Below, piece by piece: positions 3,307 through 53,332 of a stretch of DNA of 64,000 nt (position 1 is the stretch's first letter; each line of letters opens with the position of its first letter). Source of the stretch: Pseudo-nitzschia pungens (Eukaryota > Bacillariophyta > Bacillariophyceae > Bacillariales > Bacillariaceae); assembly GCA_037355855.1 (NCBI GenBank), contig CM074768.1:62001-126000 (forward strand), written 5' to 3'. A model generated the notes under the pieces. The model made no database searches and was not told where the DNA came from. It saw only the letters and a list, made by a program, of their open reading frames with translations. The translations under genes were made by a program, and so were the position numbers.

Positions 3307-3876
3307 TTAATTGGTGGGATCTTCAATGGTGGGCAAAAAGGTGGTGGGCACAAAGGTGGTGGGCCAAAAGGTGGTGGCGGAGGAGGTGGGGATCGTGGAG
3401 GGAGCGTCCGAGGGAACATCCGTCGGAGCGGCCGTGGGAGCGTCCGAGGGAGCGTCCGAGGGGGCTTCCGTCGGAGCGGCCGAGGGAGTGGCGGTGGGGG
3501 CCTTGTCCTTGTTCTTTTTCATTTTGTTCATCTTCATTTTCATTTTCATCTTCATCTTCTTCTTGGTGGGCTTGAGGGTGGGGGTCTCCGACGGAGCCTC
3601 CGACGGAGCGCTGGAGGCAGACGGAGCGCTGGAGGCCGTGGGGGACGGGGTCGCTTTCATCTTCATCTTCATGTTCATTCTCATCTTGTTGGCATTCTTC
3701 TTGTTCCTCGGGACGTCCTGGAGGTATCGGAGGGCGTCGATGTCCTCGGGGGAGAGATCCTCGTTGGCATCGATCTCGATCTCGAGCGCATTGTCGCGCT
3801 TGTCTCCGCGAAAGGCGGTTGCCGAGGTAGCCAGGAGGGCGAGGACCAACAGGAAAAGGAAGTTCTTGACGGACAT
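3307..3876 (-). CDS. Secreted Lys/Met-repeat, Pro/Ser/Thr/Ala-rich protein (silaffin-like architecture)
   Basis: 189 aa, intronless. Residues 1-21 are a strong signal peptide (basic MSVK, a leucine-rich core, cleavage near ATA/F). An acidic stretch follows (about 25-48), then an RYL tripeptide (50-52). Two unusual alternating Lys-Met tracts (about 64-74 and 105-121) alternate with PSAPS/APSDAPS segments typical of diatom extracellular proteins. Diatom biosilica proteins often show signal peptide, acidic propeptide, RXL processing site, then a lysine-rich disordered chain, so a cell-wall or silica role is a reasonable inference, but there is no homologous domain to prove it. The ATG at 3876 is chosen because it directly precedes the signal peptide. 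The GAAGATGAA-type DNA repeat under the KM tracts suggests slippage growth. The long open frames on the opposite strand are shadows of this low-complexity DNA. Confidence 0.8.
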   Translation of the reverse strand: MSVKNFLFLLVLALLATSATAFRGDKRDNALEIEIDANEDLSPEDIDALRYLQDVPRNKKNANKMRMNMKMKMKATPSPTASSAPSASSAPSEAPSETPTLKPTKKKMKMKMKMKMNKMKKNKDKAPTATPSAAPTEAPSDAPSDAPTAAPTDVPSDAPSTIPTSSATTFWPTTFVPTTFLPTIEDPTN

Positions 3877-6349
3877 CGTGGTGTTTGGTGTTTTGTTCCT
3901 ACGGTAAGCTTATCTCAAAGAAAATAAATTAGTAGTAGATTGGATGCAGTAAGGTTACGTAACCTTAGGGTTAAGTTAGATACAAGTAAATCTTACGGCT
4001 CACGTGTTCGAGTAAGTTACCTGTACGAGTAATAATCTTACGGTATGGGTTAAGATTAGTCCACAACGGATTTGTGTTTGTGTCGAGATGTGTTTTTTTG
4101 TTGGCTCAATCAAACCAAAAAAGTGTGCGGTTCGACAAAAAAGTGACAACCCGATGCGATGGTCCGGTGGTTTTGTATGCCGAAAGGTTAGATTAATTAC
4201 GCGTAATTACGAGTAAACTTTGCCGGTAAACCTTAAGGTTACTTTACTACACTGTACCGGTAATTACTTTTTACCGGCAGAGGATGGAAAGTGATAAACG
4301 AAAATGATCCGAGAAGCAGAAAGACCGTAATTGCGTAAACTAAGTAATCTTACAAGTCAGTAAGTTACGTACGGTAATTACATGTGTTCGTGCTTGCTCG
4401 GAACTTCTTGTTCTGTCTCAATCATTTCTGGTACCGTACGCTAGGTATGAATAACGTAACCTTACCGATACCCGTAAACCTTACCGGTACTGGTATTTAG
4501 TTGTAAGTAAGATTACTCGTGCCACCACTACTGTAGGGCATACTTGTATTACGCACCGCTAAGGTTACTTGTACCGTAACCTTAGTGGCTTCGATCATAC
4601 TCTTATCTACTACTAGTAATTACACTCAACACGCACGAAGTAATCTTACGCCGAATTTACTAGTACCGGTACGTACGAGTAAGACCTTGACTTTGGCGAA
4701 AGAATGGATTGGAATGGAATTTCGAATTACCGTACTATTGGAATGTTGTAAGAATGTTTGAGATTGAATGAATCTCAATCCAACAAATTCTGACACAAGT
4801 TAAGGTTAAAAGATTACCGTACATTACCGGTCGTGTGATTGCGAATTGCGAAGTAAAGTTTACGAAGTAAGTTACTGTACTACGTAAGGTTAAAAGATTT
4901 ACCGAAGTAATTGTTTCATTCGAACTTTCGAATCTGCCAAGTGCAAAGCGCACGACTAGAATCATTAAGCCCTCGATAAAGAGCGAACCGATGTCCACAA
5001 AGACGCAAAAAATGGAAGTTCCGTCTAATCGTTTTGTAGCAAAACAGAATCAATCAATCCTCCCTCCTAATCGAACCGAACGGGATCGAACCAACACATA
5101 CATTCTGTATCGTGCGGCTGTGATTGCCATGACACGCGACATCCAGTAACTTACTCCTACCGACACTTGAGCAAGTAACCTTATGGTACCGCAATCATAT
5201 TCAAGGATCCGAAAGCCAACTGCACCTTCGCCCCTCTGTGGTATGTGTTTGTACGGTACGCGTGCGTTCCACGTCCATCACAACATTCCCATATGAAACT
5301 CATACGGAAATACGAAGTGAGGGCCGAGGGATAAACCTTCCCTCCCGGTACACGTACCTGATTCATTCATTCATTCGTTCGGAACCGATTGGATCGATAC
5401 GTGTGCATGTATCGTACAGGACTCGGGGAAAACTCGGATTCCCGGTGGTGTCCGTGAAGCGGCCGAGAAACAGGTAACCTTACGGTAGGATAAGGTTACT
5501 GTATGAGTAACCTTGCTCGTAATTACCGTTAACTAAGGTTACCGCAACCTTACGGTGAGTTAAGTCTTACTGACAGTTAGTTTCTTTCTGGCACGGATCG
5601 ATCCGCCAAACTCACGATTGATTCGTATTCATTTTCAACCACCGAAAATTAGAAATTAGAACGAAGCAAGTTTTCGGAAAGGAAGCAAGTCCGTGACGGA
5701 ATGTTTGCCTTTGGTGATAACTCCGCACATACACCATGTCTGTTCAACAAAGTAAGAAGTTAAATACATGGTATTCTAGCTAACACTCTATTCTACAATG
5801 CCTCGTCTAAGTAAGCTCACGAATAGAGGACAAAGGCCAACAATGGGGTGTTTTGTGTTTTTTGGTCGAGTGACAGCTTTGCACCAGCCATGCCTTCCGG
5901 CTTGTGTGCCATATGCAGTGGATTTAGCCAAGAATAGTACAGTACGGTACGGAATCGATCTAGTATTATTATTGTTATTGTTATTACTTCGTATTATTTC
6001 CGAAGTATTTATTTAGTCAACCATATTACATGATGCTACAGTGGGCATTGGTGAGTGAGAAACAACAACAACAACAACAACAACAACAAGATGATCCTGG
6101 TCTTTCGGGAATGCAAAGAATCTACGACAAGATGATCCCGTTCTTTTTTCGGGGGGGGGTGGAATCAAATAGTACTGTAATAATGGGATGGTACTAGAAG
6201 CTCTGTTGAAACAGTAGATATTCTACAAAATCTTAAAGAACAAGTGAATGAATAGTCCTATCGATTAGATAAAAGAGAAAAGTATGATACCATCGGATTG
6301 CTGGTAACATAAGCAATCCGTTCAGCATGGTTAGTGGTTGTCCATGGTC
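3877..6349. other. Intergenic, AT-rich, with many TAAGGTTA-type motifs
   Basis: No gene is supported. It contains dozens of GTAAGGTTA/TAACCTTAC and CCGGTAA motifs, an (AAC)n run near 6061-6089 and a copy of a dispersed repeat at 5706-5920. Confidence 0.6.
5706..5920 (+). repeat. Dispersed repeat family 2, copy 1
   Basis: Diverged copy of 12786-12995. Shared blocks in the same order are CATACACCA..TCTGTTCAA, GCTAACACTCTA.TCTACAATG, AGTAAGCTC.CGAATA, TCGAGTGACAGC, and a GCCGGCATAG/GCCATGCC..GGCTTG block. No coding potential was seen. Confidence 0.55.
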
Positions 6350-23965: not shown

Positions 23966-25765
23966 CTAAGCGCATGGCCCGCTCGAGACGAGAGCGCAGG
24001 TTGCTGGACAATAATCCCAGACTCTTTTGCCCTTCCATTTCTTTTTGCACTTTTTCTTAATCTTTTTGACGTTCTTGTTCTTGTCGAGGTTATTCGAGCC
24101 CTTGGCAACCCATTTCTTGCAAGTCTTCTTCTTTTTGTTCTTGAACTTGAAGGTGGAATCATCCTCACAAGAGCCACCCGAAGTAGGTTCGTATGTGGGT
24201 TCGTACGTCGGTTCGTATGTGGGTTCGTACGTCGGTTCATATGTGGGTTCGTACGTCGGTTCGTATGTGGGTTCGAAGATGAGTGCGGGGCTTGGTTTGG
24301 AGGTGACGCCTTCATCGCTAAGGGACAGTTGAACGGTGGCGTCCTTTCCATCACTGGAAAGAGAAACCCATTCGATGTGTAAGCTATAAACGCTTCCCTT
24401 GAAATTAGAGATGGAAAAGGTTTCGCCAACAACGAGACCCTTGGTTCGAAAGCTGCGTTCACTGCCATACGGGCCTCCCTCGGGCTTGGTCCAGATGCCC
24501 ACTTGGTCCCGAATGTCTGTCGTATCGATGTTGAAACCTGAAGCGCGATTAAACCCAAGGTAGTAGTCATTTCCTGCCTCGCTATCATCTCCGTACTCTA
24601 TGATGCGCAATACAACAACTTTTCCCTCGGGACTTCCAGAAGTCTGGTAATCCACGATTCCATTCAACACATATGTTTGTGGATTCCCAATAATAGTGAA
24701 AGGATCAAGTGCTAGCTCTTGCTCTGAATACCAACCCAATTGCCAGTTCTTAACAGGATTGAAACACTTGAGTGGAGTATCATCTTCATAGTAAGAATAA
24801 CCCATAATGCAAGTCTCGTCGTCATAAACATCATCTCCGAGGGAGCTGTGATCCATTCCCAAGTTGTGACCAATTTCGTGCATTTGAAAGGTCACGGATG
24901 AGCACGCTTCGCCATTGTAGTAGCTGTCATAATCGTTGTAGTACGCATATCCCGAGTAACCTTCCTCATCATCAGGAAAGCAAAATAGGACGTTTTCGAA
25001 TTTGTCTACAACACCTTCTTCGCCACCATACAATTGGTACAGCGCATCGATAGATGCATCTTCCATGGCATCATAATCTGTTTTGGAGGCCGAGACCGTC
25101 ATCTCGATGACTCCACCGCCTTCTGTGGATGGTTCAAACATTAATTGATTGAACGAACAGGCCGCATACTGAGATCTCATATTCGCCTCATCAGTGAAGA
25201 CATCTTCCATCAGCTGGTCCGTATCAGCGACCATTACGTTGCCCTCATTATCGGTAACACGCACCACAAGGGTTCTTCGGGTTCCAATTGCCCTATGGTC
25301 ATCTCGTGAGTTTTTGCGTCTCTGTCTGTGGTGGCGGGGATCATCTTTCGTAAGCTTTTCAATATTAAAGGATACTGCATCCGGAACGACCAGCGTTGAC
25401 ACACCGTTGATAATGGACTGGCGAATGTATGCGCCTTGCATCCTCATGGTGGCTTCTCCCGAAATCGGTCCGTAGGAGTCGATCACGTCCTTCGAAATTC
25501 CTTCGACGTTCATCTTGTGAGCAATAGTACCAATGCTTCGTACATAGTCTTGTTGGAACTTACAAGACCAAGTTCGTTGGTCTGGTCTGCCGTCTGAGAA
25601 GTGGGTCACCTTGAGATACAATACGCACTCTGTATTGTCTTCCACCAAATGCCGGTGGTAGGTGTAGGCTTTATCTATCTCACTCTCACTCCGACGAACA
25701 GTACCTTGTCCCCAGGCCACGGAGAGAGCTGCGGCAAGTATGGCGAACCGAGTGAGACTTTTCAT
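23966..25765 (-). CDS. Secreted gametolysin-like zinc metalloprotease (peptidase M11) with Cys/Lys-rich C-terminal domain
   Basis: 599 aa, intronless. Residues 1-19 are a signal peptide. A propeptide follows with RHL at 38-40. The catalytic domain shows HEIGHNLGMDH at 296-306 (zinc ligands H296, H300, H306; base E297) and a Met-turn CIMGYS at 319-324, the M11 pattern. Gametolysins of green algae digest glycoprotein cell walls; in diatoms the family is likely to act on extracellular matrix or prey proteins. After the protease comes a beta-rich region, then eight near-perfect EPTY units (about 500-532) as a linker. The last domain is a lysine-rich module with Cys spacing reminiscent of ShKT folds (it starts CEDD and ends YCPATC). 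The linker DNA is a GGTTCGTA-type repeat and may vary in length. The start ATG immediately precedes the signal peptide. Confidence 0.9.
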   Translation of the reverse strand: MKSLTRFAILAAALSVAWGQGTVRRSESEIDKAYTYHRHLVEDNTECVLYLKVTHFSDGRPDQRTWSCKFQQDYVRSIGTIAHKMNVEGISKDVIDSYGPISGEATMRMQGAYIRQSIINGVSTLVVPDAVSFNIEKLTKDDPRHHRQRRKNSRDDHRAIGTRRTLVVRVTDNEGNVMVADTDQLMEDVFTDEANMRSQYAACSFNQLMFEPSTEGGGVIEMTVSASKTDYDAMEDASIDALYQLYGGEEGVVDKFENVLFCFPDDEEGYSGYAYYNDYDSYYNGEACSSVTFQMHEIGHNLGMDHSSLGDDVYDDETCIMGYSYYEDDTPLKCFNPVKNWQLGWYSEQELALDPFTIIGNPQTYVLNGIVDYQTSGSPEGKVVVLRIIEYGDDSEAGNDYYLGFNRASGFNIDTTDIRDQVGIWTKPEGGPYGSERSFRTKGLVVGETFSISNFKGSVYSLHIEWVSLSSDGKDATVQLSLSDEGVTSKPSPALIFEPTYEPTYEPTYEPTYEPTYEPTYEPTYEPTSGGSCEDDSTFKFKNKKKKTCKKWVAKGSNNLDKNKNVKKIKKKCKKKWKGKRVWDYCPATCALVSSGPCA

Positions 25766-37145: not shown

Positions 37146-38213
37146 TCACGACGGTGGTGTTCTCGTTTCCAGTACCGAACCTCGGACGATCTCTTTTCTC
37201 TTGGTTGTGGTCGCTGGGTTCTCGGCCGATGCTTCCGCTCGGGAAAGCGTAGCGGATATCGCCGTCGTCGCCGTCGTTTCCGCGTTAGGGGTGCGGGTGC
37301 CGGTGCCGGGGCTAGTTTTGAGGTCGGTATTGACGTGAACGTTCCCGCCACCATACACCTGGACGTGATCGGGCAGATGACCGTGGAGTCGCTCGTACCA
37401 CACCAGGTACATCCTTGGGAACACGAAAAAGATGGTTGAAGCCACTGAGTGCAAGAAGAATGGTAGTAACCCAAGGATGAAAGCAATTATCTCGACGGCA
37501 TTAGGATTATCCATCTCTTTTCGAATCTTTTCTTCAAGTTTACAAAAATAATATAGCCAGAAACAGGTCCAATTGGTGATTGCAAAAACCAAATAACGGA
37601 AAATTCTTCGGGTGTCTCCAACAGATTCCTCCACATTTCGAAGCATCAAGGCACAAACCATGAGTATGACGCGCAATGAATAAAGAATGATCAAGAAAAC
37701 TATGTGATTCACAGTAAGTGGACCGCACTCTTCTTCGACTATGGCATTGAAAGTGCCCAACACCGCTGGTACAAATAAACCCACCACAAACGGAGCAATG
37801 ATGTGCCGGGGAAGAACAGTTTGACCGCGACGGAATCGCATCACTTTGTAGACCCGATACAGCTTCAGAAATAGGATCAGGTCCACGGCGAACGCGCCGA
37901 GAAAATAAAAGAGAAAAGAGAGATTGCAAAAAACTTCCGAATCATCCCCATCTTCGACTCCTTCGCCCATCATAGCAAATAGCTTAAACACGGTCCCACC
38001 TACATAAACCAATGATCCGACACCCATGACAGCTAGCAGTCGAGGTTGTCCCATCGCAACGATTGGTTTGTTTCGAAACCAAAAAAGAAAGATCAAGGAT
38101 GCAAGATTGACAATCGTGCCGATAGTGATAAACAACGTCCCAATCTTTAGGATCGCCTCTTTCGCGGATGCGGAGAGTTGTCCCGCTGCGATGTCCATCG
38201 TTACGGAACGCAT
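37146..38213 (-). CDS. Seven-transmembrane receptor of class C GPCR type
   Basis: 355 aa, intronless. Seven hydrophobic helices lie at about 21-46, 59-81, 94-119, 138-159, 170-191, 205-227 and 244-266. RNKPIVAMGQPRLL between helices 1 and 2 matches the RN.PIVKA.Q..L segment of 7TM_3 (metabotropic glutamate/GABA-B type) receptors. C96 before helix 3 and C163 in the loop before helix 5 can form the disulphide common to GPCRs. No Venus-flytrap domain or signal peptide precedes the helices: the N-terminus is only about 20 residues. The C-terminal tail is Thr/Ser-rich and probably cytosolic. Ligand and G protein are unknown. The assignment to class C rests on that loop and the topology. Confidence 0.8.
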   Translation of the reverse strand: MRSVTMDIAAGQLSASAKEAILKIGTLFITIGTIVNLASLIFLFWFRNKPIVAMGQPRLLAVMGVGSLVYVGGTVFKLFAMMGEGVEDGDDSEVFCNLSFLFYFLGAFAVDLILFLKLYRVYKVMRFRRGQTVLPRHIIAPFVVGLFVPAVLGTFNAIVEEECGPLTVNHIVFLIILYSLRVILMVCALMLRNVEESVGDTRRIFRYLVFAITNWTCFWLYYFCKLEEKIRKEMDNPNAVEIIAFILGLLPFFLHSVASTIFFVFPRMYLVWYERLHGHLPDHVQVYGGGNVHVNTDLKTSPGTGTRTPNAETTATTAISATLSRAEASAENPATTTKRKEIVRGSVLETRTPPS

Positions 38214-45798: not shown

Positions 45799-47568
45799 CG
45801 AGGAGAAGGAGAGCGAGAACGAGAACGAGAGGGATACCGAATTCCGGGGTTTTGGTCTTCGTTATTGCTAGTGGTTTGTGTCGTCAATTTTCTTGGGTTT
45901 TTCTCTTGTGGATGTATGGTGTGATATGTTTGTATGTGATTTGTGACACGAGAGTTATCGGGTGTCGAGTGCGTCTCTCGGGAGTGGTACAGGGTTGTCG
46001 GTGCGGAGTTCCTCCACATCTCTGCCGTGGATTCGATATCCGATAGATTTAGAAAACAAGAGCTTTCCCGGACTCTATCTCTTCACGTTCCGAGCACAAG
46101 AAAGAAATTTGGACTGGTTCGGGATTTCCGTCTCGGAACATTGTCCCCTTGCCACTGCTGTTGCATGATGCATATGTTAATGTTGATGTGGTTCTCGTTT
46201 TGGTTCTCTTGGAAATTACGGAACCTGTGAGTTCCTCCGATTTGTTGTGATGTGATGCGATGTAATGTAATGCGATGCGATGTGATGTGATGTGATGTAA
46301 TGCGATGTGATGTGATGTAATGTAATGCGATGTAATGCTATGTACGAAGTACACGTAATGTAATGTAATGCGATGCGATGCGATGCGATGCGTTGTGATG
46401 TGATGTGATGTGATTTGGCCTGATTCGGCCTGTTTGGTACGTAAGGTTAAGGTTAATCGTACGCACAAGTTCATCTATCCGCTCAAAAGTACCGGTAAGT
46501 TATGGTAACTTACCGTCGTATCCTTTTCTGGGTGTGCATAATCAATCAATTATTTTTCGGGCTATTATTTTACTACGTATTATTTTTTTGTGGAAAATGT
46601 CAAAAGAGTCGTTTGAGCCACGAGTCACACTTCTCAAGGATTCTGAAGACACTTACCCAAATATGGCAACGCGCTTCGAAAAGGGTTCTAAAAAGAGATC
46701 GAGATCGAACCGCACTTAGTCTGCCCTAACGATAGGTCGTCGTCTTACCAGGTCCCTTTTCTGGGTTTGCATTATGAATTGTTCAGGCCAGTCCATTATC
46801 CATTACTAGTAACCTTACTTCGTACTACTACTTCGTATTTTCTAAAAATGTCACAAGAGAACTCGATCTATTTTCGCTCGCTCTCTTAACTCAAAGCCAT
46901 GCAACAAAAAATGCAGGACTCCAACCAAGACCCGAGACGAGACAAGGACCAAGACACGGACCAGGACCATGCAGCGTCTTTCCCTGCTGCCCACCAAGCT
47001 GCTAGAGCTGTTGGTGGCATCTCCGGCAACAAGAAAGGTGCAGCCTTGATCATTAGAGACGAGGAATTCTTACCGTACAGATCTCTGAAGTGTTCTGTGA
47101 CCGCCATACCGCAAAACAGCTCTTTCGCGCCGGCCTTTCGACTTTTGACTCAGTACCGTACAAAGCCTTGCCCCCGAGAAAGCCTCCCGTTTCTCCCGTA
47201 ATGATTCTCCAAACAGGCACCCCATGTGTCCCAATCCAATGGAAGTCTTTATCAGCAAGTCCCCGATGCAGAAGCTCTTGGTATTTGACGAGTGGATACC
47301 AACGCCTGATTGGTATCAAACCTACTGCAAGTGGCCGGTGGCACAAAGGTGGCGCCTATGAACGGACCAAGCAACGGCTCGAGGCAACGAAACAAGAGAA
47401 GGAGTCGGGTCCCGATACCTCATCTCCCCCTTCCCCAAAGGTTCTCTCCAAGTTCACCAATTAGCATCAAGCACTTCGTCAGGACCTCCGTCAACGGTTC
47501 GATGAACACGAATTTCCCCCAGTCTGTGTGATTCGAGACCGCAGTCATCCTCGCAGACCGATCTCGCG
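45799..47568. other. Intergenic; left flank of the retrotransposon
   Basis: A GATGTGATGTAATGCG pentamer tract fills about 46240-46415. The 46880-47470 part has a few medium-length frames with mixed composition (a D/Q-rich start at 46899) that change frame repeatedly. They might be the remains of a gene, but none could be supported. Confidence 0.5.
46240..46415 (+). repeat. Degenerate pentamer array GATGT/GATGC/AATGT
   Basis: Over 30 five-base units, almost all ending in ATGT, ATGC or ATGTG variants, broken by a TACGAAGTACACG segment at 46338-46351. Confidence 0.85.
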
Positions 47569-47573
47569 CCATC
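47569..47573 (+). repeat. Target-site duplication, left (CCATC)
   Basis: The five bases CCATC immediately before the left LTR recur at 53328-53332 immediately after the right LTR. This proves the outer LTR boundaries independently of LTR sequence. Confidence 0.9.
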
Positions 47574-47801
47574 TGTTGAGGAAATTAGAGTTAAGGATAC
47601 GAAATGACCGTTGACAAGAATCAGCGAGGCATTGATGACCGAGAAAATCAAATTGGGCGATCACACAACCACACAAAAAAAATGATTTACCTACCGATTG
47701 GAAAATCACAACCAGAAATACTCACTTTTTAGTTTAATACAATTAGTACCGTTTATGCATGTTACAACCGATTGTAGACTTGTTCTGTTAAATTTACAAG
47801 A
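47574..47801 (+). repeat. 5' LTR
   Basis: 228 bp, starting TGTTGAGGAA and ending TTTACAAGA. The end TGTTG..CAAGA is one base away from the usual TGTTG..CAACA, and both LTRs carry it. Contains the primer-like segment at 47725-47739. Confidence 0.95.
47725..47739 (+). other. LTR segment complementary to the primer-binding site
   Basis: CTTTTTAGTTTAATA is the exact reverse complement of 47802-47816. It is preceded by CTCA as in the decayed element. If the RNA starts at or near here, its 5' end would fold onto the primer-binding site across a 62-nt loop. Confidence 0.85.
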
Positions 47802-47816
47802 TATTAAACTAAAAAG
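47802..47816 (+). other. Putative self-complementary primer-binding site
   Basis: TATTAAACTAAAAAG begins at the first base after the LTR. A primer bound here would have its 3' end against base 47802 and would copy the LTR from base 47801 on, as minus-strand synthesis requires. Confidence 0.8.
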
Positions 47817-47868
47817 GCGTTGAAGAGAAAGACAACCTAACCAAGTTAGAAGGAGACTAAAAGAGACC

Positions 47869-50800
47869 ATGAGTACCGATAACGGTAATGAAGAGGAGAA
47901 ACCTGTCGAACAAGAGACAGATGAGGAGACCCAAAAAGGGGATGATCAGAAACGACGAAGCACCCGAAGCAACAGAGGAAAGAATCGAAGCAATATTGGA
48001 AGCCAAAACAGTATGAAATCCAGCTTCAAAGGAGAAACGAGCGCTATTAAAGATGATGTATTCGTATTCCACCAAATCCACAACAAGAAATGGATGACTG
48101 CCAGGCAAAAGTTCATCAATTATGCGGGGAAGACCTATGGAGGAAACGAAGAAACCAGCTTGGAGCTGAGAAAACTAACAGTAGTAACAATAGAGCCACC
48201 GCCACAGCCAACAACGGAGGAATTAGCGGCGATGACTGATTTTGAGAAGGAAATGGCAAAGGATGAATTCAAACAGGACAGGAAGGCCTACAAGGATGTG
48301 GTACAGAAGACCCGAATCAACCTGACAAAGTTATTCAAGGTACTGTGGGGACAATGTGACCCCATTATGAAGAATAAGATCAAAGCCGACAAGGGATACA
48401 AAGAGGCGCATACCGAGAAATCAGTAATTAAACTACTTGGAATAATTGAATCCGTATGTGAACAAGGAGACGGTGCACGCAACCGACGTGTCCAACGGTT
48501 CTTGGCAAAGAAGAAGGTATATAACTTCCGGCAATTGGATGACATGGATCTTGGCGAGTATCTGGAGAAATTTGAGGTCCTTGTTAACGTGGCTGAGAAA
48601 CTTGGTGCAAAATTTTATGACGAAGAGGACGTAGCGGAGGCTGATTCACAACCCATGAGAATAAAACAGGAACCGATTGACACGGATACCAAGACAACGG
48701 CAACGCAATCCAAGGACGACAAGGCGAAAACCACAACTACAACGGTGGTTGCCCCGATCGAACAAGACAACACAGTTGACCTACAAGATGAGGCTAGGGA
48801 CAGGGCCCTAGCAATCATATTCTTCATGAACGCTAACGACACGAAGTACGCTGTTTACAAACAAGAATGCCATAACGCCATGACAAAGGGAAGAGATGAA
48901 TATCCAAGAAACGTAACCGAGGCGCATACGCAACTCGAAGACTTCAAATTCAATCCAAGGCTATATCAGATGCGAGGGTCGAGCAATAAAACAAGATATA
49001 CCCCTGGTCACCAATTCGTGACGAATGGCGTCGGCACGAACACAAATGGGGACTACATCTGTTACAACTGTGATCGAAAGAACGAGTGTATGGCATACAA
49101 CTGTCCACACATGACCAAGGAGAATGGAGATCCCACTCAAAATGAGAGAAAGAGGATCCAACGAGAGAGGAGGGAACAGATTAGTGGTGACCAATGTCTG
49201 ATTGACGCCATCACGGAAGCCGAGATAAACGACGACCATGAGAGCACCATCTCCGACGCCGAAAGCTGGGCTGACGAACTAGATGGCGACAACTACGGTA
49301 TCACACTGTTCACAGAGAAACTTGATACAAACAGAGCAAAACAGGTCCTGATTGAGGATGTACGGGGAAACAATAACCATACATTCAATCAGTGTAAGAG
49401 ACGAATTAACCCACGATGGGTGTTATTGGATAATTGCTCAAGCGTCAATGTGTTCTATAACAAACGATTCCTGGAGAACATTCGAAAAGCAGACAATGTA
49501 CTACATTTATACACAAACGCGGGCAAGGCAATCATAACAATGGTTGGAGACCTTCCTGGATTCGGAGAGGTGTACTACTATCCAAGAGGGATCGCGAACA
49601 TCCTATCATTCCATGCAGTTACCAACCTTCCTGGGTACACGGTGAAATATAATAATGGGATTGAAGATGCCTTTCGCGTAACGAACCCAAATGGAACAAC
49701 CAGGCGGTTCATACCATCAAACAAAGGGCTGTACTATTGGGACAGCAGCGAAGAGATCAAGCGAGGAACCGTGCTCCTCGGGGAGACAACAGAAAACAAA
49801 GCAGTCGAAACCGTACGAGCTAACAAAGAAAAATTCTCGAAAAGAGATAATAACAACGCTGCGAAGGCACGCCAACTACAGAATGTTACCAATTGGAGTG
49901 ACAGGGATATGATGAGGGTCGCAAGATATGGACCACTGATGAACAGCCCATTCACACCAAGGGACATCACCATCATGAAGGCGATATTAGGACCGAGTAA
50001 GAGTGGGATACAAGGCAAAACAGTAAGGAAGAATAGAAACGTGGTGGGAGATCAACTCGTACCAGTACCAAGACAAATAATGGATTATTACCAGCATGTT
50101 ACCCTGTCGATAGACGTGATGCACGTCAAGGAACTACCATTCCTAATCACGATCACGAAACACATCCACTATGGGACTGCCACGATCCTGAAGGACATGA
50201 CCGGTGGAAGCCTCTACAGTGTAATCACGGAGCTTGATAAGTACTATCAGAAACGGGGATTCAAGATCAACATGATATTTGCCGATAAACAGTTCCAGAG
50301 CCTACGAAATCAATTAGGGGAATCCCAGATCACTCTGAACCTAGCAGCACAAGAGGAACATGTACCAGAGATTGAACGGTTCATACGGACCGTTAAGGAA
50401 AGAGCAAGGTGCGCGCTCAACCACACGCCTTTCAAGAACATACCAAAAACAATGGTGGTGGGGATGATATCTAGTGTACTGCTATACTTAAATGGCCTAC
50501 CGTGGGTAGGAGGTGTATCAAAGATCTTGTCACCACTAACCATTATCACTGGCCGAAAATTGGATTACAAGCTACATTGCCAGGTACCATTCGGAGCCTA
50601 TGCACAAGTCCGCAGAACAACTGACAATACTCTTAGACCCCGGACCATTGGAGCAATTGCGTTGGCACCGATGGACAACATGCAGGGAGGGATGAGGTTT
50701 ATGAACCTACAAACCGGAAGAGAGCTGGAACGAGACAGACCAGATTATACAATCCTACCAATGCCAGATGAGATTGTGGATCGAGTTCACGAGCTTGCCG

Positions 50801-53133
50801 GAGGACAGCAGAGGGGAGTGACATTCACTAACAGAGCGGGAGAACAGATACCTGATATGGATGTCGAATATGACTCGGAGGAAGATTCCTATTGTGATCA
50901 TAACATCGAGTCGGACTCGGAGACAGAAGATGACGATTCCACTACAAACGACATAACCGACACCGAAAGTACAGGAGTGGACGTCGATGAGACCGAAGGT
51001 ACGGATGAAGATGATATCAACGATATCGACAATGTCGAAAACACAGGAGTGGACGAGGAGGAAATCATAAGAAACCTAGAAAATGATGCGGAAGTGATTG
51101 AATTCACACATCCTGACAGTGAAGGGAGCATCAGCAGCAATACCGATGAGGAAGAAGACATGTCAAATAGTGACGAGGACTCACTGGAGGAACGGCCAAC
51201 ACGTCGCAACCGTGGACAGCCATATACATGGCGAGGCTTCGAGGACGCCTACACAAATCTGACGATGACGGATGAGACTATCGAAACCATTCAGTCAGGA
51301 GACGAACAATATAATTATCATCGGGCCATGATGTTCTTAGGGCAGGCAGACCAAAGGACCCGTGAGACAGTAACGCATTACATCATGAACCAATACGGAC
51401 TAAAGGAAGGGCTGAAGCGCTTCGGAGAAGAGGGACAGTCTGCAGCCATGAAAGAGATGAAACAGATGCTGTCACGAGAGGTGTTCGAGGAGATTGAATA
51501 CAAATCATTGTCGAGTGAAGATAAAAGACGAGCATTACCCATCTTATTGTTCTTAACAAGAAAAAGAGACGGGACCGTGAAGGGAAGAGCGTGTGCTGAC
51601 GGAAGGAAACAACGCATTTGGATGAGCAAAGAAGATACAAAATCACCAACTGTTGCGACTGAGGCGCTATTCTACCTTATAATGACATTTGCCCATGAGA
51701 ACAGGGACGTCGCCACACTGGATCTACCTGGACACTTTTTACAAACACCAATGGAAGGCAGACTGGTGTTGCGAGTGGATGGGGACCTGGCTCTAACACT
51801 CGTGCGCCTTGACAAAGGGCGCTGGGAGAAACACTTAAAGAAGGTCAGGGGCAAATGGGTCATATTTGTGAAGTGCAGCAAGGCAATATATGGAACACTA
51901 AACGCCGCACTATTATCATATAAGAAACTAGCTGGACACCTGGAGGACTGGGGATATATCATGAACCCATACGACCACTGTGTATGGAATAAAAACATAA
52001 ATGGTCAGCAAATGACCGTGGCGTTCCACGTGGATGATATGATCATTAGCCATGCGAACCAGCTGGAGGTGGACGGGCTTATAGCCCAATTGAGGGCAAT
52101 ATATGGAAAAACAGATCCGATGACTGAGACACGAGGAAAGACACATGAATACTTAGGGATGACAATCGATTTTGGAACACCAGGTGAAGTAAGAATTACA
52201 ATGTATGACTATATACAGAAGATGTTGAATACGCTACCAAAAGAAATGATGGGGGCGAAGACCACGGCAGCACCAGAGAACCTATTTCGAACAGAGGATG
52301 GTGAGCCGGAAGACAAATTGAATGAAGCAGATAAAGACTATTTTCACACAACAACGGCACAGGCATTATATCTGGGGAAGAGAGGAAGACCTGATCTCCA
52401 GACTGCTGTCGCGTTCTTGTGTACCAGGGTCCGGGATCCGGACAAACATGATTATCGGAAACTAGCACATCTGATGAAATACCTACAGGCAACGAAACAC
52501 CTACCATTGATATTGAGATATGATGGCGGAGAGGTATCACTATATATAGATGGAGCACATGCCGTACATTCGGACATGAAAGGACACGCCGGTGTAATGG
52601 TGACTGGCGGGAAAGGGACAATATACGCCTCATCAACCAAAACCAAGCTGAACACAACCAGTTCTACAGAGACAGAATTAGTTGCCGTAGGAGAGAAACT
52701 ACCGAAGCATCTGTGGTTCAGGTACTTCAGAGTGGCACAAGGAGGGAACAGCACAGAGGATGTTCTTTATCAGGATAACAAGGCAGCAATGTTGTTGGAG
52801 AACAATGGAAGGATGTCATGTGGAAAAGGATCAAAACACATACACATTCGATATTTCTTTATCACTGACCGGATTAAAAAGAAAGAAGTATGCGTAAGAT
52901 ATTGCCCAACAAAGGATATGATAGCTGATTATTACACAAAACCAGTACAAGGCGGACTCTTCAAGAAGTTCAGAGACCTCATATTGGGGATTAAAGAGGA
53001 TCAGATCGAAACATACAAGCAACAATATGACGAAATAATTAAGAAATATGGACTGGCACCGACTACAGAGGCCGATAGCGGAGCAAGTCCACAGGAGTGT
53101 GTTGAGGAAATTAGAGTTAAGGATACGAAATGA
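47869..53133 (+). CDS. Copia Gag-Pol polyprotein
   Basis: 1754 aa in one frame, no frameshift. Gag (about 1-460) ends with a Cys cluster CYNCDRKNEC then C412 (C398, C401, C407, C412), spaced CX2CX5CX4C rather than CX2CX4HX4C. The protease has LLDNCSSVNVF with Asp521, where Copia proteases normally read D-S/T-G. Integrase acidic residues are D749 (SIDVMHV), D806 (IFADKQF) and E836 (PEIERFIRTVKER). Reverse transcriptase has LDLPGHFLQTPME and the FHVDDMIIS active site (D1389, D1390). RNase H has SLYIDGAHA, SSTETEL and YQDNKAA, then KHIHIRYFFITDRI and the ADYYTKP end typical of Copia. The last ten codons lie inside the 3' LTR. The protein would reverse transcribe and integrate the element. No disabling change is seen, though the protease triad is unorthodox. 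Confidence 0.97.
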   Translation: MSTDNGNEEEKPVEQETDEETQKGDDQKRRSTRSNRGKNRSNIGSQNSMKSSFKGETSAIKDDVFVFHQIHNKKWMTARQKFINYAGKTYGGNEETSLELRKLTVVTIEPPPQPTTEELAAMTDFEKEMAKDEFKQDRKAYKDVVQKTRINLTKLFKVLWGQCDPIMKNKIKADKGYKEAHTEKSVIKLLGIIESVCEQGDGARNRRVQRFLAKKKVYNFRQLDDMDLGEYLEKFEVLVNVAEKLGAKFYDEEDVAEADSQPMRIKQEPIDTDTKTTATQSKDDKAKTTTTTVVAPIEQDNTVDLQDEARDRALAIIFFMNANDTKYAVYKQECHNAMTKGRDEYPRNVTEAHTQLEDFKFNPRLYQMRGSSNKTRYTPGHQFVTNGVGTNTNGDYICYNCDRKNECMAYNCPHMTKENGDPTQNERKRIQRERREQISGDQCLIDAITEAEINDDHESTISDAESWADELDGDNYGITLFTEKLDTNRAKQVLIEDVRGNNNHTFNQCKRRINPRWVLLDNCSSVNVFYNKRFLENIRKADNVLHLYTNAGKAIITMVGDLPGFGEVYYYPRGIANILSFHAVTNLPGYTVKYNNGIEDAFRVTNPNGTTRRFIPSNKGLYYWDSSEEIKRGTVLLGETTENKAVETVRANKEKFSKRDNNNAAKARQLQNVTNWSDRDMMRVARYGPLMNSPFTPRDITIMKAILGPSKSGIQGKTVRKNRNVVGDQLVPVPRQIMDYYQHVTLSIDVMHVKELPFLITITKHIHYGTATILKDMTGGSLYSVITELDKYYQKRGFKINMIFADKQFQSLRNQLGESQITLNLAAQEEHVPEIERFIRTVKERARCALNHTPFKNIPKTMVVGMISSVLLYLNGLPWVGGVSKILSPLTIITGRKLDYKLHCQVPFGAYAQVRRTTDNTLRPRTIGAIALAPMDNMQGGMRFMNLQTGRELERDRPDYTILPMPDEIVDRVHELAGGQQRGVTFTNRAGEQIPDMDVEYDSEEDSYCDHNIESDSETEDDDSTTNDITDTESTGVDVDETEGTDEDDINDIDNVENTGVDEEEIIRNLENDAEVIEFTHPDSEGSISSNTDEEEDMSNSDEDSLEERPTRRNRGQPYTWRGFEDAYTNLTMTDETIETIQSGDEQYNYHRAMMFLGQADQRTRETVTHYIMNQYGLKEGLKRFGEEGQSAAMKEMKQMLSREVFEEIEYKSLSSEDKRRALPILLFLTRKRDGTVKGRACADGRKQRIWMSKEDTKSPTVATEALFYLIMTFAHENRDVATLDLPGHFLQTPMEGRLVLRVDGDLALTLVRLDKGRWEKHLKKVRGKWVIFVKCSKAIYGTLNAALLSYKKLAGHLEDWGYIMNPYDHCVWNKNINGQQMTVAFHVDDMIISHANQLEVDGLIAQLRAIYGKTDPMTETRGKTHEYLGMTIDFGTPGEVRITMYDYIQKMLNTLPKEMMGAKTTAAPENLFRTEDGEPEDKLNEADKDYFHTTTAQALYLGKRGRPDLQTAVAFLCTRVRDPDKHDYRKLAHLMKYLQATKHLPLILRYDGGEVSLYIDGAHAVHSDMKGHAGVMVTGGKGTIYASSTKTKLNTTSSTETELVAVGEKLPKHLWFRYFRVAQGGNSTEDVLYQDNKAAMLLENNGRMSCGKGSKHIHIRYFFITDRIKKKEVCVRYCPTKDMIADYYTKPVQGGLFKKFRDLILGIKEDQIETYKQQYDEIIKKYGLAPTTEADSGASPQECVEEIRVKDTK

Positions 53134-53327
53134 CCGTTGACAAGAATCAGCGAGGCATTGATGACCGAGAAAATCAAATTGGGCGATCACACAACCACAC
53201 AAAAAAAATGATTTACCTACCGATTGGAAAATCACAACCAGAAATACTCACTTTTTAGTTTAATACAATTAGTACCGTTTATGCATGTTACAACCGATTG
53301 TAGACTTGTTCTGTTAAATTTACAAGA
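53100..53327 (+). repeat. 3' LTR
   Basis: Same sequence as 47574-47801 by eye. Its first 34 bp are also coding: the Gag-Pol stop codon is at 53131-53133. Confidence 0.95.
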
Positions 53328-53332
53328 CCATC
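53328..53332 (+). repeat. Target-site duplication, right (CCATC)
   Basis: Partner of 47569-47573. Confidence 0.9.

Follow-up and report, generated by a model that had tools for sequence, protein, structure and literature searches.

The window, by which we mean the whole stretch of DNA that was analysed (64,000 nucleotides, G000:C11:62001-126000 of a 66.9 Mb assembly), carries an LTR retrotransposon on its forward strand. The left LTR (TGTTGAGG...TTTACAAGA, 47574-47801, + strand) is 228 bp long and shows 100% identity to the right LTR (53100-53327, + strand) over all 228 bp; since both LTRs are identical, the insertion is probably young. The target duplication CCATC, to which no strand is assigned, lies at 47569-47573 and again, as read at the flank of the right LTR, at 53328-53332. 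A single gag-pol ORF of 1754 aa (47869-53133, + strand) has RVT_2 at residues 1219-1469 as its only Pfam match (E 1.1e-12; score 48.5 bits, cut-off 31.6), a profile that we take to denote the Copia-type reverse transcriptase, and no integrase profile matched the ORF in this Pfam search. Two named homologues of the element protein are labelled 'Reverse transcriptase Ty1/copia-'. By RVT_2, the element is a Copia-type retrotransposon. Immediately before the right LTR, CAGGAGTG (53092-53099, + strand) is a candidate plus-strand primer site; the same sequence followed by the LTR start TGTTGRAG (53092-53107 in the window) is common to two relatives with 35-36% protein identity, L094 and L095.

About 1.1 kb upstream of the element lies a pentamer-based microsatellite with GTGAT, GCGAT and GTAAT units (46217-46444). 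Other ORFs in the window resemble a Class 3 seven-transmembrane receptor (37146-38213, - strand) and a gametolysin, or M11 peptidase (23966-25765, - strand). A neighbouring lipase gene has 56 homologues, and all eight whose records name an organism come from diatoms, Thalassionema and Attheya among them being confirmed as diatoms in the taxonomy. The sequence thus supports a diatom host.

The first 15 bases past the left LTR, TATTAAACTAAAAAG (47802-47816, + strand), are the exact reverse complement (100% over 15 nt) of CTTTTTAGTTTAATA (47725-47739, + strand) within that LTR, as the initial annotation had proposed. This is the sole exact inverted pair of at least 10 nt within 47574-47950. We refer to the two halves as the predicted primer-binding site (PBS), which is flush with the LTR end, and the LTR segment, which is the predicted self-primer. 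The position of the border had been attributed to the CCATC duplication, and comparison of the outer flanks of seven LTR pairs (the window's and six others, of which one, L014/L019, is internally deleted) bears this out: 5-bp target duplications (CCATC, AAGAT, GTTAC, TACGG, ATTTG, GATGA and ACTAC) are flush with TGTTG...ACAAGA in 7/7 pairs. Because the duplications adjoin the LTR ends in every pair, the border at 47801 is fixed independently of the pairing.

The initial annotation had also held that a random match of this length was very unlikely. When the LTR was shuffled with its dinucleotides preserved, a border-anchored complement of 15 nt arose in 0/20,000 shuffles, the longest being 13 nt (in two shuffles), and the expectation from base composition is about 1e-6. 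The claim therefore holds.

A genome search with the left LTR and leader as query found at least 40 places (40 of 65 candidates were scored), of which 30 were examined as loci; as the leader was part of the query, copies in which it differs strongly may have escaped. LTR ends were located independently of the PBS, using CAATTAGT and the LTR end ACAAGA. This yielded 34 ends in the window and the 30 loci. Of these, 32 are distinct (L001 and L003 are the window's own), and they split into two groups with none intermediate. The first consists of 19 left junctions, which deviate from the complement of their own LTR segment at 0-2 positions: 17 are exact over 15/15 positions, L025 has one mismatch and L014 has two. 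The second consists of 13 ends of right or solo LTRs, which show 9-14 mismatches. Among the 19 left junctions there are six different LTR-segment sequences, each with its own matching PBS, namely (segment/PBS) AGTTTAATA/TATTAAACT, ACGTTAATA/TATTAACGT, AGATTAATA/TATTAATCT, ACAATAATA/TATTATTGT, ACGATAATA/TATTATCGT and CTTTTCAATTTAATA/TATTAAATTGAAAAG.

Alignment of these junctions (19 rows, 16 distinct, 240 cells counted) showed that 99.2% of the cells are paired. Changes on both sides were found at four base pairs, a number reached by 5/500 shuffles, and in 20 cells, reached by none of 500, although the copies are related and the 20 cells are not independent events. The covariation score was 0.224 against a shuffled mean of 0.056 (0/500 shuffles reached it), and at most 0.028 when the partner was slid by 1-3 columns. 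Nine of the 15 pairs are invariant, and the number of further pair types (seven) does not rise above that of the shuffles (157/500 reach it). When the seven sequence types read by letter are considered (the six above and the TTT type described below), at least six matched changes are needed. These data indicate that the LTR segment and the PBS vary together across the family. A chance inverted repeat in AT-rich sequence might have been entertained, given that the pair is AT-rich and its fold energy is not exceptional; the junction comparison, the shuffles and the covariation refute it, and the same geometry recurs with other sequences in the distant relatives L095 and L098 (see below), so that we regard coincidence as practically eliminated.

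Searching the genome with a pattern for the LTR segment revealed two further types, TTT and ATT, and more copies of the known types. Eleven left LTRs whose PBS letters had not been seen (five TTT, three ATT, one CGT and two CGA), taken as left from the order of LTRs and reverse transcriptase, formed the prediction set; at 9/11 of these loci a window-like leader after the LTR was already known, without its letters, so that the letters are what was predicted. From the LTR alone, the PBS was predicted with an exact match at 9/11. For four successes, all TTT, the PBS letters were displayed and agree with the prediction; the remaining five were matched by a pattern in which one variable position could be either A or T, and the letter present there was not displayed. 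The prediction failed at C8:1224790, where the site contains one mismatch, and at C1:1269518, where no site lies within two mismatches. Reversed-pattern controls gave 0 hits in the exact searches and 7 versus 35 when two mismatches were allowed.

Some copies depart from the simple layout. At C7:2269308 one T has been lost from the left LTR segment, the right LTR has the full form and the PBS fits the full form, which is the pattern expected for a mutation after insertion. Two exact PBS sites, C3:2393443-2393463 and C2:3846261-3846281, have no left LTR segment that could be assigned to them with clarity from the LTR-segment pattern, and are fragments or nested copies. Four LTRs of a GTTTC type (C1:4671913, C1:4748363, C1:5051525 and C10:131484; L016, L015, L013 and L018) are each followed by the same flank, TTCCGTTCGG, and two of them have a Copia reverse transcriptase nearby on the opposite strand. 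No PBS of the GTTTC type was found in the assembly, all four matches being the LTR segments themselves. For this reason they look solo; apparently they are solo LTRs copied with their surroundings and hence provide no test of the prediction.

Pairing of this kind raises the question of which RNA serves as primer. A host tRNA or half-tRNA could prime, with the LTR-PBS pairing merely masking or presenting the site and perhaps regulating priming; in plants, most Copia groups are described as having a PBS for tRNA-Met, and some use half-tRNAs (PMC6317226). Several observations speak against such a primer here. None of the PBS versions read starts with TGG (0/19 left junctions), so that the tRNA-primed Copia type of site, complementary to a tRNA 3' end, is absent from these junctions. 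TGG is the complement of the tRNA CCA end, and is the start expected if an intact tRNA 3' end paired there. A search of the 66.9 Mb assembly for the last 13 nt of the window primer, TTTTAGTTTAATA, gave 23 occurrences, and 23/23 lie in this family, 16 in LTR segments and seven antisense in PBSs; for the window primer type, the one searched, no host RNA with the 13-nt match was therefore found. The initial annotation had suggested searching for a diatom tRNA complementary to the site. Comparison of the eight primer types of the genome with 24 tRNA records (30 loci), whose nuclear origin is not established, gave no 3'-anchored match of at least 5 nt, in a search where 63 of 4671 candidates were scored and 30 of 67 matches examined. 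Nor did a site of the half-tRNA type, which matches an internal tRNA stretch, emerge from the family-only 13-mer or from the 24 records in which shorter matches were sought. Shorter matches to nuclear tRNAs appear implausible as a primer source because of the covariation, and a host RNA would not vary with the LTR segment of each family. We thus consider priming by a host tRNA very improbable. In the course of this search, the same tRNA genes were found repeated at C5:5.86-5.98 Mb, C7:4.80-5.22 Mb, C23 and C24, with a tmRNA gene occurring twice; this looks like repeated organelle DNA in the assembly.

More distant relatives came from an alignment-based search, which returned seven loci on contigs in bacterial genome bins, presumably contaminants; a search of genome contigs with a single sequence as query found no relative. 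L094, L096, L099 and L100, which are without a left-LTR junction, were left out, and L097 and L098, being the same element, were counted once. This left two distinct elements with a readable junction, and both show a pair at the LTR end with sequences unrelated to those of the window. In L098/L097 (28% protein identity over 1190 residues), ACAATAGTTGATTAAGT at 118-134, right after CTCTC, pairs over 17 nt with 338-354, and the direct repeat in L097 sets the LTR border at 337 or 338. One base is different in the right LTR of L098, and none in that of L097. In L095 (36% protein identity), a 16-nt pair is formed between 4964-4979 and ATTGTTCTTTTGTTCG at 4799-4814, which begins at the A of CTCA; only one LTR is present on the contig, and its end is inferred from the ending CTCAAGA and the start TGTTGGAG. 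The complement begins at the A of the CTCA motif in both elements, and in each region searched the pair is the sole exact one of at least 10 nt. The single LTR of L095 lies between the end of pol on its left and the start of gag on its right (3822-5037), a layout that may mean that copies are arranged in tandem or in a circle, or may be an artefact of assembly.

In a midpoint-rooted tree of 50 reverse transcriptases, the three self-matching lineages, L094 and the Pseudo-nitzschia proteins P0029 and P0118 group in a single clade, in which L098 branches first; 30 further Copia loci of the window's genome fall outside it. The other Copia lineages (L031-L060) and the relatives at 60% and 50% were examined around the reverse transcriptase only. 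The two distant elements hint, without proving it, that the self-matching trait may be ancestral in the clade. No relatives were found in viral contigs: 12 stretches with the PPT-LTR motif were rejected as candidates, since none encodes the element protein. Plasmids gave remote reverse transcriptases only (23-24% identity), and PDB sequences gave no match to the element protein.

Conservation along the LTR is informative as to where the RNA may start. Mean identity among ten family representatives was taken in ungapped 10-nt blocks, in which indels lower the figure for U3: it is 0.24-0.35, hardly above chance, in the U3 blocks up to -11, and 0.65 at positions -10 to -1, which end in YCA. It then reaches 1.0 at 47725-47729, falls to 0.62 in the variable middle and is again 1.0 at 47735-47744. 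Such a boundary is the pattern expected if the RNA starts at CTCA, within the initiator-like motif CTCACTTTTT (47721-47730, + strand). TCACTTT fits the oomycete initiator INR, YCAYTYY (PMC3599244), and in the same source the diatom Thalassiosira pseudonana appeared to be without the combined INR+FPR block; the motif is thus a putative initiator. A start at A47724 of CTCA appears more likely than one at C47725, given that the A of this motif is the first complementary base in L095 and L098; in the window family A47724 is unpaired, and the PBS is followed by G. Of the initial proposal that the RNA starts at or within a few bases of 47725, the near position thus agrees with the conservation boundary, and the exact base is more probably the neighbouring one.

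Folding of the predicted RNA 5' region had been suggested as a check: all 15 pairs form in the single-sequence fold, and its stability is not unusual (z -1.14, 25/200 shuffles being equally stable). The RNAalifold consensus fold adds two predicted U5 hairpins on the + strand, a small one at 47762-47777 and one with a CTTGT/ACAAG stem at 47779-47800, adjoining the PBS helix. Both are absent from the single-sequence MFE structure, and both are conserved; neither contains double changes in the consensus fold, so that covariation lends them no support. These hairpins, and the conservation of R-U5 well past the pair, would suit an RNA or DNA structure with a role other than priming, such as packaging, dimerisation, integration or translation. 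Against that reading, all left junctions read, and the two distant relatives of unrelated sequence as well, have the pair ending at the LTR border, which is what a minus-strand primer requires, and we judge a role outside priming to be highly unlikely.

We conclude that 47802-47816 is, with high probability, the PBS of a Copia retrotransposon that is predicted to prime its own reverse transcription in the manner of Tf1. At the level of sequence, this reading draws on the pairing, its flush position, the covariation, the restriction of the 13 nt to the family and the two distant relatives; the last three of these, together with the 9/11 predictions, uphold the Tf1-like geometry that the initial annotation had put forward. 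Transcription would begin at A47724, and the element RNA would pair with the PBS through its own 5' end. RNase H or another nuclease would then cut this RNA after 47739, leaving a primer of 15-16 nt, from which reverse transcriptase would start the minus strand by copying U5 from 47801. The primer could act within its own RNA molecule or be supplied by a partner molecule. During plus-strand synthesis the primer would itself be copied, rewriting the PBS from the LTR segment in each cycle, and such rewriting would explain how the pair stays matched despite sequence drift. A broader form of this model, on which we are evenly divided, is that self-priming is ancestral and general, independently of Tf1/sushi and of the plant TAR lineage, in a deep CoDi-like Copia clade of algae and other protists, with the primer rewriting the PBS each cycle so that both drift yet remain matched.

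Natural covariation provides strong sequence evidence for RNA pairing, and here it supports self-priming in a separate Copia clade, an indication that the trait either had several origins or is old. The matched variant families amount to natural tests of primer identity. Annotation pipelines usually seek the primer-binding site by a match to tRNAs. Pipelines that filter on the PBS may discard self-primed elements if the site is sought in this way; in the annotation of Cyclotella cryptica, only elements with a recognised primer-binding site were kept (PMC7466962). According to one proposal, LTR retrotransposons descend from a self-priming precursor (PMC3601003).

The initial annotation knew of no report of such a mechanism in Copia. 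Self-priming in Copia elements is, however, not first proposed here, as Neumann et al. (2019) predicted it for the plant Ty1/Copia TAR lineage, with Houba and Osr-1 (PMC6317226). The TAR elements resemble the window element, by description only, as Copia elements with predicted self-priming; they belong to a plant lineage, and the parts of that paper that concern them give a prediction and mention no covariation test. Among the matches listed from a mainly open-access literature, none reports self-priming for diatom elements, which is no proof of its absence. The CoDi elements (Maumus et al. 2009, PMC2806351) are likewise comparable by description only, as Copia-type elements of diatoms, and the window element shares the diatom host with them, as judged from the eight named lipase homologues; the main text of that paper contains PBS once, as a buffer, and contains neither tRNA nor self-prim. 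Fungal GalEa elements with their Conserved Hairpin Site are also Copia elements without a tRNA-type PBS, but their authors, as reported in PMC5445492, found no LTR segment complementary to the site, whereas the window element has an exact one.

The closest mechanistic parallel is Tf1, a Gypsy element for which self-priming was demonstrated; it has since been implicated in others, and Tj1 of S. japonicus is proposed to prime in the same way (PMC4600332). In Tf1, pairing with the PBS involves the first 11 bases, and the RNase H cut falls between bases 11 and 12 (PMC7175516, a review). The U5 hairpin beside the PBS helix of the window element is reminiscent of the U5-IR structure named in the title of a Tf1 paper that PMC4600332 cites. 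As in Tf1 and Tf2 of the Tf1/sushi group (Ty3/Gypsy), the PBS of the window element directly follows the LTR and is complementary to a segment of that LTR, here the predicted 5' end of the element RNA, an arrangement expected of the self-primed class. Unlike them, the element encodes a reverse transcriptase that matches RVT_2 only, as in Ty1/Copia, and not the Ty3/Gypsy type, and its pair, as read from the sequence, extends over 15 nt, with 17 in L098 and 16 in L095, compared with the 11 bases of Tf1.
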